Translations under genes and position numbers: made by a program
NCBI RefSeq assembly: GCF_900113955.1
Contig: NZ_FORH01000002.1
Location: 372,001 to 436,000, forward strand
Direction: 5' to 3'
DNA: 64,000 nucleotides
Source: Celeribacter neptunius
GTDB lineage: Bacteria > Pseudomonadota > Alphaproteobacteria > Rhodobacterales > Rhodobacteraceae
The notes under the pieces: model-generated
Databases searched by the model: none
What the model was told of the DNA's origin: nothing
What the model saw: the letters and a program-made list of their open reading frames with translations, nothing else
Shown here: positions 20,748-21,876 of the stretch, in pieces
How the letters are laid out: each line of letters begins with the position of its first letter
Position numbering within the stretch: the stretch's first letter is position 1

Positions 20748-21129
20748 AGGTTCCCCTTTTCACCGGCCTGTTCACAGGCCTTCACATCGCGGTATGGCCT
20801 TCGAAATAGGGGGATTCCTGACCTTTTTCCACTCCGCAATCGCATATCGGCCCCATATCCGGCGGGGGGCGCAACGGGATCACACACAAAATCTTGAAAA
20901 TAGGTCAGTAAGACACATGCATTTTCTGCATAGCGGCAATGCTGACAGGGAGGATTGTGCAATCGCAGCAATTCCCCAATATTAGTTTCAACAACAGCAG
21001 CCAAGGCTTGCACCTTTGACCGCCACTAGGTGGTACGCCCGAAACGGGATGCGGCAGACGCCCGAAGGATCAAGGCACGGCTCGACACGCGGACCCCGGT
21101 CCGAACGCATACTAAGGTTAAAAAGTCAG
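20748..21129. promoter_or_regulatory. Divergent intergenic region upstream of mrp and the DUF1127 gene
   Basis: 382 bp without a credible gene. The DUF1127 homologue with its sRNAs in Rhodobacter is driven by a heat-shock sigma (RpoHI/HII) promoter. A possible match is CTTGAAAA at about 20892-20899 with ACATGC some 14 bp downstream, and another CTTGCA occurs at 21007. Neither is convincing enough to fix a start. A minus-strand ORF here (about 97 codons from TTG) has no ribosome site and is rejected. Confidence 0.3.
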
Positions 21130-21342
21130 ATGGCTTACGCAAACGACATCCAAAGTGCCGCCCCGGCATCCGCTTCCTTCGGCGGCCTGTTCAAATCCCT
21201 GGCCGAGCGCGTTGCGCGCTACCGGGTGTACCGGGAAACCACGCTGGAACTTTCCGGCCTGAGCGATCGCGATCTCGCTGATCTCGGCCTGTCCCGCGCG
21301 TCGATCAAAGCCATCGCGTATGAGGCCGCTTACGGCCAGTAA
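21130..21342 (+). CDS. DUF1127 small protein (CcaF1-like)
   Basis: 70-aa basic protein ending in the DUF1127 module: YRVYRETTLELSGLSDRDLADLGLSRASIKAIAYEAAYG. In Rhodobacter sphaeroides the DUF1127 protein RSP_6037 (CcaF1) is encoded directly upstream of the CcsR1-4 sRNAs, is co-transcribed with them and acts as an RNA-binding factor in their maturation. The same arrangement exists here, with the first hairpin starting 14 nt after the stop codon. Start ATG 21130, with the weak AAGG upstream. Confidence 0.88.
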   Translation: MAYANDIQSAAPASASFGGLFKSLAERVARYRVYRETTLELSGLSDRDLADLGLSRASIKAIAYEAAYGQ

Positions 21343-21356
21343 AGAATAGACATCAC

Positions 21357-21424
21357 GGCCTCCTCCTCCTCCCTGAGGCCCTGATACCAGCGGCAACACC
21401 GTCCTCCTCCCTGGTGTTGCCGCT
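21357..21424 (+). ncRNA. CcsR/cuckoo-type sRNA unit 1
   Basis: Two stem-loops. Hairpin 1 (21357-21380) has arms GGCCTC/GAGGCC. Hairpin 2 (21389-21424) has perfect 12-bp arms AGCGGCAACACC/GGTGTTGCCGCT. Both loops expose CCTCCTCCC, the complement of the Shine-Dalgarno core. The weak-stem-then-strong-stem pair is the cuckoo RNA signature. The unit is co-transcribed with the DUF1127 gene and presumably released by processing. Confidence 0.85.
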
Positions 21425-21437
21425 ACAGATACCGGAA

Positions 21438-21510
21438 TTCGGGGTCCCTTCCTCCTCCCTTGGGCCCTGAAGACCAGAGCGGCGATGCGTCCTCCTCCCT
21501 GCATCGCCGC
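21438..21510 (+). ncRNA. CcsR/cuckoo-type sRNA unit 2
   Basis: Hairpin 3 (21438-21471) has a 10-pair stem including G-U pairs (TTCGGGGTCC with GGCCCTGAA). Hairpin 4 (21479-21510) has perfect 10-bp arms GCGGCGATGC/GCATCGCCGC. Both loops contain CCTCCTCCC. Confidence 0.85.
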
Positions 21511-21519
21511 ACCAATACC

Positions 21520-21545
21520 GGGGCTCTTCCCTTTGTCTGGGCCCC
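21520..21545 (+). ncRNA. Degenerate orphan hairpin within the cuckoo RNA array
   Basis: Hairpin 5 has arms GGGGCTC/GGGCCCC, but its loop TTCCCTTTGTCT lacks the CCTCC motif. Its stem resembles the first hairpins of units 2 and 4. It has no strong-stem partner of its own, so it looks like the remnant of a fifth unit. Confidence 0.6.
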
Positions 21546-21553
21546 TCGAAATG

Positions 21554-21627
21554 CGGTCTTCCTCTCCTCCTCCCTGGGAGGCCGTGACTGAAGGCGGCGG
21601 TGTCTTCCTCCTCCCTGACACCGCCGC
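21554..21627 (+). ncRNA. CcsR/cuckoo-type sRNA unit 3
   Basis: Hairpin 6 (21554-21584) has a 9-pair stem CGGTCTTCC/GGGAGGCCG with two G-U pairs. Hairpin 7 (21594-21627) has perfect 11-bp arms GCGGCGGTGTC/GACACCGCCGC. Both loops contain CCTCCTCCC. Confidence 0.85.
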
Positions 21628-21642
21628 ATTTCTTTTCTGATA

Positions 21643-21723
21643 CGGGTCTCTTCCTCCCTTCGGACCCGACAATGAGACGCTCGCACCCCCTCCTCCTCCC
21701 TGGGTGCGGGCGTCTTTTTTATT
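21643..21723 (+). ncRNA. CcsR/cuckoo-type sRNA unit 4 with transcription terminator
   Basis: Hairpin 8 (21643-21668) has arms CGGGTCT/GGACCCG and the shorter loop motif CCTCCC. Hairpin 9 (21676-21714) has a 13-pair stem GACGCTCGCACCC/GGGTGCGGGCGTC with one G-U pair and a CCTCCTCCC loop. It is followed by six T, so it serves as the intrinsic terminator of the whole DUF1127-sRNA operon. Confidence 0.87.
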
Positions 21724-21735
21724 TGGGAGGGGACG

Positions 21736-21876
21736 ATGCCTTCCGGGACAACTGAGCCGGAAACCGCTCGGCAGCGCATGAGGCCCCGCAAGGTCCCGCT
21801 TGAGCATCGGACAGAACTTCACGCAAACAAACATCCTGCAAACGACCCCGTGCCAAACCGCCGGAACGGCGGATGA
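21736..21876 (+). CDS. Possible 46-aa ORF behind a very strong ribosome site
   Basis: Directly after the array terminator the sequence GGGAGGGG (21725-21732) precedes an ATG at 21736 that opens 46 codons (MPSGTTEPETARQRM..., ending NRRNGG). The peptide is basic with no recognised domain. The purine-rich ribosome site is complementary to the CCTCCC loops just upstream, so it could be a target or decoy. Coding status is unproven. The remaining DNA to 22060 holds nothing else I can identify. Confidence 0.25.
   Translation: MPSGTTEPETARQRMRPRKVPLEHRTELHANKHPANDPVPNRRNGG

Follow-up and report, generated by a model that had tools for sequence, protein, structure and literature searches.

Known CcsR-Type RNAs and Related Regulons

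Among the closest described systems is the ccaF1-CcsR operon of Rhodobacter (Cereibacter) sphaeroides. The parts of the publications drawn on here report the maturation, function, and stress induction of its CcsR RNAs (PMC10253847, PMC8625941, PMC8307010, PMC7866481), describe a promoter of the RpoHI/RpoHII type for the operon (PMC10253847), and attribute the cleavage of the CcsR precursors to RNase E (PMC8625941, PMC7866481). The RNAs are reported to target the flhR mRNA (PMC8307010) and to affect the pyruvate dehydrogenase complex (PMC8307010, PMC8625941). In S. meliloti, anti-Shine-Dalgarno (aSD) loops, as in NfeR1, silence mRNAs (PMC10746234). As far as these excerpts go, co-transcription, maturation by RNase E together with CcaF1, the RpoHI/II promoter, and aSD silencing by NfeR1 are thus known in relatives. 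A second line leads to the LysR-type transcriptional regulator (LTTR) VtlR of Brucella, whose main targets in the available text, regulated positively, are three DUF1127 genes and AbcR2 (PMC12595884); hence, a link between VtlR and DUF1127 genes is already known in that genus.

Identity of the Locus

The window, i.e., the whole 64-kb stretch of Celeribacter neptunius DNA analyzed here, contains a locus of the same kind. Positions 21130–21342 (+) encode a CcaF1-like protein of 70 residues that matches DUF1127 (PF06568, 9.3e-12) and lies directly upstream of the hairpin array on the same strand, in agreement with the preliminary description. NCBIfam gave no match for this protein, and its best named relatives among the matches listed are from Celeribacter species (81–85% identity). 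As in CIN1, the DUF1127 gene stands upstream on the same strand, and the paired hairpins have CCUCCUCCC loops and a conserved structure. As in the cuckoo/ar14 RNAs, by the characters given in the available part of PMC3927594, CCUCCUCCC loops sit on variable stems and the number of modules varies. The gene order and the loops therefore place the locus with the CIN1/cuckoo kind of Alphaproteobacteria, and the DUF1127 gene, the paired CCUCCUCCC-type loops, and the conserved units all support the CcsR/cuckoo reading put forward earlier. Judged from its sequence, it is almost certainly a ccaF1-CcsR (CIN1, cuckoo RNA) type operon of Celeribacter; an array of this kind (CcsR/cuckoo type) is in itself already known.

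The covariance search proposed as a check gave a divided answer: the Rfam CcsR1 model matches all four two-hairpin units, but each score remains below the gathering score of 65.3 bits. With a best value of 46.0 bits against that threshold, strict membership of RF02791 does not apply, and the locus is classed as CIN1/cuckoo type rather than as an RF02791 member. The ar14 model (RF02344) matches two stretches with 47.4 and 46.3 bits and does not reach its gathering score of 58.8 either; in the Rfam scan of the window, two tRNAs alone reach theirs and nothing at this locus does. In another Rhodobacteraceae genome, the first unit of the locus L177 attains 94.1 bits with CcsR1, above the gathering score, and, as in the window, the box (here with one mismatch) is followed there by the promoter element, the DUF1127 gene, and the array.

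Architecture of the Hairpin Array

When base pairs are limited to 60 nt, the stretch 3′ of the DUF1127 stop codon folds into nine hairpins (H1–H9, all on the forward strand), the number given previously. The earlier loop counts hold as well: seven loops carry CCTCCTCCC, that of H8 has CCTCCC only, and that of H5 has neither. Four two-hairpin units can be distinguished, every one of which is matched by the CcsR1 model. Unit 1 (21352–21424; 46.0 bits) joins the weak H1 (21352–21385, −12.5 kcal/mol) to the strong H2 (21389–21424, −22.1 kcal/mol), both with CCTCCTCCC loops. Unit 2 (21434–21510; 35.2 bits) consists of H3 (21434–21475, −17.3 kcal/mol) and H4 (21479–21510, −19.1 kcal/mol), again with CCTCCTCCC in both loops, and its start overlaps the heptamer CGGAATT. 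After the motif-less H5 (21520–21545, −12.3 kcal/mol), unit 3 (21553–21632; 40.4 bits) pairs the weaker H6 (21553–21585, −15.2 kcal/mol) with the strong H7 (21590–21632, −24.7 kcal/mol), both with CCTCCTCCC loops, and unit 4 (21643–21716; 31.4 bits) pairs the weak H8 (21643–21668, −9.1 kcal/mol), with its CCTCCC, with the strong H9 (21674–21716, −27.6 kcal/mol), which carries CCTCCTCCC. The alternation of weak and strong stems described before is clear in units 1, 3, and 4, slight in unit 2, and broken by H5. H9 is indeed the last hairpin and is followed by TTTTTT, as read from the sequence, so that 21674–21722 is presumed to form an intrinsic terminator; a terminator scan that admits loops of 3–8 made no call at H9, whose loop is 13.

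The motif CCTCCTCCC occurs seven times in the window, always on the forward strand and between 21365 and 21700, as compared with 0.75 expected copies and a maximum of four in 100 shuffles. Across the genome, CCTCCTCCC-N20-40-CCTCCTCCC has four matches, all of them within the array. The fold of 21343–21722 amounts to −174.2 kcal/mol, as compared with −121.9 ± 5.5 kcal/mol for shuffles (z −9.6). In a single unrestricted fold of 21340–21740, H1 is absent from the listing and H8 persists as a 3-bp remnant, which shows that these weak hairpins are marginal on their own. A minus-strand ORF of 257 aa overlies the array.

Conservation of the Array

A DUF1127 homologue is present in all 20 Celeribacter genomes searched, and in all 20 an array with at least four CCTCCTCCC motifs follows the best DUF1127 copy, so the pairing of gene and array is observed directly. 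The alignment comprised 13 of the 21 Celeribacter arrays (L119–L139) and excluded the divergent L128 and L133–L138 as well as L139, the second copy in genome G298. In it, the eight motif hairpins retain pairing in 95.2% of the pair cells. Both partners have changed in 20 of the 89 pairs, compared with a mean of 10.3 in shuffles (none of 500 as high) and 1–5 for slid structures. RNAalifold, on its own structure, gave both-sided changes in 15 of 91 pairs. One of five covariation measures, the number of further pair types, showed no excess (53 vs. 53.7 in shuffles). Most loops are unchanged, with H7 of L131 and the H8 loops as exceptions, and the stems vary with compensation. The preliminary description had named a failure of the hairpins to be conserved as paired units in relatives as the finding that would speak against it; this loss did not occur, since the units keep pairing with compensatory changes. 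The heptamer CGGAATT (21433–21439), in the linker of units 1 and 2, is invariant in all 13 aligned arrays.

These data also bear on the simplest alternative, that the array is a stabilizing or terminating 3′ UTR of the DUF1127 mRNA that does not act in trans. Its position directly behind the stop codon and the terminator-like hairpin at its end would suit such a part, yet nearly invariant loops on stems that vary with compensation argue against it, as does the trans action of related RNAs reported in the available parts of PMC10746234 and PMC8307010. This alternative is regarded as very improbable.

Beyond the genus, at least one pair of CCTCCTCCC motifs 20–40 nt apart occurs in 216 of 295 sampled Rhodobacteraceae genomes, a figure to be read against a reversed-pattern control that matches a minority too. 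Forty-seven loci were parsed: 20 from Celeribacter, L177, and 26 (hand-picked, most of them matched from the N-terminus) of 80 named loci. The latter are the best 80 of at least 90 found and are therefore close relatives of the DUF1127 protein of the window. The number of motif hairpins per parsed locus runs from 2 to 17, so four units are not a fixed trait. At L178 (G165:C1:333600-336800), 20 motif pairs were counted, with no Rfam match at gathering score in the array; many of the listed pairs are near identical, which suggests a recent tandem amplification.

Spacer Hairpin H5

The preliminary description listed H5 among the nine hairpins as the one without the motif. The alignment corrects this view: at the position of the 26-nt H5, all 12 other aligned Celeribacter arrays have a hairpin of 12–14 nt, often GGGCGAAAGCCC, without an aSD motif, and the homology of these hairpins is directly supported. 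A decayed regulatory hairpin, another origin considered for H5, was ruled out on the same observation. Furthermore, among the 58 linkers of at least 22 nt in the 47 parsed loci, 57 hold a non-aSD fold with a free energy of at most −4 kcal/mol, as compared with a shuffle expectation of 39.1, and 38 reach p ≤ 0.05 against 30 shuffles; the 22-nt cut favors linkers with extra sequence, and some of these linkers (e.g., in L034) contain a degenerate main hairpin. On account of the alignment homology and of the frequent non-aSD folds in linkers, H5 is interpreted as a spacer hairpin between units 2 and 3. From the RNase E cleavage of the R. sphaeroides precursors described in the available parts of PMC8625941 and PMC7866481, we infer a role for H5 in processing.

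A recognition element common to the DUF1127 leader and the spacer hairpins, through which CcaF1 might bind both, was also considered and rejected for the window (p = 0.955). The corresponding value was at most 0.05 in five of 20 Celeribacter loci (L131, L132, L134, L136, and L137) and 0.055 in L135, and none of 18 other loci reached 0.05. A Celeribacter subgroup (L134, L136, and L137) has a CGGGC-NNAA-GCCCAC-like hairpin both in the leader of the DUF1127 gene and in the linkers of the array, which may represent a shared recognition site.

Conserved Promoter Box

Upstream of the DUF1127 gene, positions 20927–20941 (+) hold TGCATAGCGGCAATG, a box of the VtlR/LsrB-like LTTR type that is an exact match to TGCATRGCNGCAWTG. 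A second element, TTGTGCA-N3-GCAGCA (20955–20970, +), lies 28 nt from the first position of the box and overlaps the presumed −35 region of a promoter tentatively read as ATTGTG-N16-CCAATAT (20954–20982, +). Compared by eye, the latter resembles the S. meliloti RpoH1 consensus CTTGAA-N16-CCTATAT, as given in the available part of PMC8844928; a sigma-70 scan found no promoter. The stretch AAATAGGTCAG at 20898–20908 represents a further conserved motif, AATAGGTCAG, which most of the displayed Celeribacter upstream regions contain about 18 nt 5′ of the LTTR box.

Nineteen of 20 Celeribacter genomes contain exact copies of TGCATRGCNGCAWTG, one to three each and 26 in total: 20 before a DUF1127 gene (19 genomes, with two copies in G298), four before a SorY-like sRNA, and two elsewhere. 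At the 20 DUF1127 places, the distance from the box to the start of the matched gene is about 150–245 nt. Genome G310, which is 85% complete, has no exact box, and its locus L138 is without one. Among the best 80 of at least 90 named loci, where an array was taken as at least two TCCTCCC in a chain behind the gene, the box with at most one mismatch was found at 40 of 46 array loci vs. one of 694 control windows, at eight of 20 loci without an array, and at none of 14 Methylobacterium loci. Since it also precedes DUF1127 genes that fail the array test (8/20), the box is tied to the gene and not to the RNA. L030 and L064, which have the box and fail the array test, contain one unit with shorter motifs each. 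In L084 (Nioella), an LTTR box with one mismatch is present, and two inverted repeats, discerned by eye and with loops lacking CCTCC, take the place of the unit. Within the same best 80 of at least 90 loci, the second element, with at most one mismatch and at a distance of 27 or 28 nt to the best box, is found at 43 of 46 array loci and nine of 20 loci without an array; 38 of the 46 array loci have both box and second element.

The Brucella VtlR motif is given in the available text of PMC12595884 as CAATGCAGCCATGCA. Its reverse complement differs from the box at three of 15 positions in the window, where it lies upstream of the promoter as in the VtlR/LsrB regulon, and at one of 15 in L121, L122, and L124. 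For the S. meliloti LsrB sites, the excerpts give GCAT-N3-TG-N3-T at abcR1 (−61 to −49; PMC8844928) and TGCA-N6-GCAT at nfeR1 (PMC10746234). GCAT, G, and T of the abcR1 form recur in the window box, which has a G in place of its T. Conservation of the box and its likeness to the VtlR motif are direct observations; activation through it is a proposal.

The same stretch could be read as the promoter of a plain CcsR operon served by RpoH-type sigma factors alone, the box being either the site of another regulator or a part of the core promoter architecture. The operon of R. sphaeroides was, after all, described with an RpoHI/RpoHII promoter in the part of PMC10253847 at hand, and the second element overlaps the presumed −35 region and keeps a rigid 27/28-nt distance to the box, as core promoter parts do. 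However, the box begins some 28 nt before the −35 region, has the T-N11-A form of LTTR sites, and resembles the VtlR motif (PMC12595884, available part), and the sole other exact box in this genome adjoins a LysR-type gene whose relatives show VtlR/LsrB-like synteny. Regulation by RpoH-type factors alone seems unlikely. The reading preferred here, in which the operon, besides having an RpoH-type promoter as in Rhodobacter, is activated by a VtlR/LsrB regulator, a known redox sensor, is somewhat probable on these sequence features.

Candidate Regulator and SorY-Like sRNA

The exact box occurs twice in this genome, once before the DUF1127 operon and once between a LysR-type gene and a presumed purL (locus L150). 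The second copy immediately precedes an sRNA-like gene, whose SorY score of 62.4 bits stays below the gathering score of 111. In L150, this SorY-like sRNA occupies 1361–1438 (−), with its own LTTR box at about 1508–1523 (−) and the LysR-type gene at 1705–2643 (−). The combination of box and SorY-like sRNA was found in four of 20 Celeribacter genomes, i.e., in this one and at L154, L171, and L156, which were viewed over 120 nt before and 260 nt after the box; within the same limits, the exact sites L165 and L175 showed no SorY-like sRNA.

Close homologues of the L150 LTTR (E ≤ 1e-70) are present in 42 of 77 Alphaproteobacteria. Of 30 such loci fetched, 27 had a placed start, and in 21 of these a TrxB-type CATCDG motif, which we take to be the TrxB active site, lies just upstream of the LTTR homologue. 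A TrxB gene followed by the LTTR is the published order for VtlR/LsrB, according to the excerpts used. At both LTTR loci from the same family (L150 and L211), no TrxB motif was found within 1.5 kb, and at L211 a box is missing even when two mismatches are allowed. An AbcR-type sRNA at the LTTR loci was considered and dropped, as no Rfam family, AbcR-type included, reached its gathering score in the 20 loci scanned of the 30. In NCBIfam, none of the 25 families displayed (of 56) reached the cut-off with the LTTR. From the box beside the gene and the synteny in relatives, the L150 LTTR is proposed to be VtlR/LsrB-like. This assignment conflicts with a section title in PMC11975290, the part of that source at hand, in which LsrB is called an LTTR unique to Rhizobiales, unless the naming differs.

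Proposed Mode of Action and Candidate Targets

In the mechanism proposed, a VtlR/LsrB-type LysR regulator bound at 20927–20941 would activate an RpoH-type promoter. A single stress-induced transcript would then encode the small DUF1127 protein and carry four two-hairpin sRNAs in its 3′ part, the last of which would end in the terminator. Cleavage of the linkers by RNase E, aided by the DUF1127 protein, would free the units; spacer hairpin H5 lies in the linker of units 2 and 3. Translation would be blocked by base pairing between the exposed CCUCCUCCC loops and purine-rich ribosome sites such as GGAGGAGG, pdhA mRNA being the best candidate target. By analogy with the Rhodobacter relatives, as the preliminary description suggested, the array RNAs may sequester or regulate mRNAs and the DUF1127 protein may affect their maturation. 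The aSD mode of action is considered quite likely, and operon identity and mode of action, taken jointly, form an account that is likely to hold.

In the genome, GGAGGAGG-N3-9-ATG fits 38 places, as compared with two for the reversed pattern. The 38 include the array, read on its minus strand, and of the 30 places fetched, several open short frames only. Ten of the proteins, run on Pfam, include an E1 dehydrogenase component, a mesaconyl-CoA hydratase-like, and an HMGL-like protein, as well as pyruvate:ferredoxin oxidoreductase, CcmE, and GlnE. We read the E1 dehydrogenase component as probable pdhA. All 19 Celeribacter loci have GGAGGAGG ahead of pdhA; elsewhere in the family it is rare at this place (one of 28 other loci with a start found; in one further locus, no start was found). 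The gene is a sensible candidate because the CcsR RNAs of R. sphaeroides are reported to act on the pyruvate dehydrogenase complex, as noted above, and it is the best candidate, if a rather doubtful one.

The loops might instead serve as a general brake or sponge that masks many ribosome sites, or titrates an RNA-binding protein, without aiming at a few mRNAs. The motif is identical in seven hairpins, its copy number ranges from 2 to 17 over 47 loci as a dosage effect predicts, there are 38 genomic places that fit GGAGGAGG-N3-9-ATG, and the loops presumably resemble the end of 16S rRNA, which we count in favor of this explanation. It is set against the unchanged GGAGGAGG before pdhA in all 19 Celeribacter loci and against the flhR mRNA as a reported target of the R. 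sphaeroides CcsR RNAs (PMC8307010, available part), and it appears improbable on balance.

Implications

Beyond the preliminary description, the new points are the interpretation of H5 as a spacer hairpin and the conserved VtlR/LsrB-like promoter box; the box is the one most worth following, with the spacer hairpins second. Possibly, the Rhodobacteraceae CcaF1-CcsR operon belongs to an ancient VtlR/LsrB circuit, in which a LysR regulator switches on a DUF1127 protein, as it does in Brucella, with an aSD array attached behind the gene of that protein, the neighbor of the regulator is a SorY-like sRNA with a CCUCCC stretch, and spacer hairpins are processing signals that time the release of the units. 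This wider picture is tentative. If the promoter reading is right, the VtlR/LsrB regulon, with its DUF1127 proteins and AbcR/NfeR1 sRNAs, is joined with the CcaF1-CcsR stress RNAs of Rhodobacter, which would help explain the co-occurrence of DUF1127 genes and aSD sRNAs. No paper tying CcaF1-CcsR to VtlR/LsrB was found in a set of 14 publications that lay outside the primary CcsR papers; PMC12501420 alone contains terms from both sides, LsrB once and in a reference.

Comparison with Known Systems

Set against published descriptions and L177, the locus shares with CcsR1-4/ccaF1 of R. sphaeroides (RF02791) the DUF1127 gene, the two-hairpin CCUCCUCCC units, and the terminator, but its stems differ, H5 is longer, and all four units score below the threshold. 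L177, which passes the CcsR1 threshold, has 13 motif hairpins by parsing vs. eight in the window, and likewise contains TTGTGCA-N3-GCAGCA and the box with one mismatch. The Rhizobiales cuckoo RNAs ar14/NfeR1 and SmelA075/SmelA099 (RF02344) have the same CCUCCUCCC loops on variable stems, according to the available parts of PMC3927594 and PMC10746234. The ar14/NfeR1 sRNAs comprise three or four hairpins each, whereas the units here have two, and the word DUF1127 is absent from PMC3927594; NfeR1 is activated by LsrB, as stated in the available part of PMC10746234. The VtlR/LsrB regulon of Brucella, Agrobacterium, and Sinorhizobium resembles the present case, as far as the excerpts describe it, in an LTTR that activates DUF1127 genes (in Brucella), in sRNAs of the aSD/AbcR type, in a similar box, and in a regulator gene that adjoins sRNA genes, as the L150 LTTR does. 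In contrast to that regulon, the neighboring sRNA in Celeribacter scores best as SorY, below the threshold, and not as AbcR, and the DUF1127 target bears an sRNA array.
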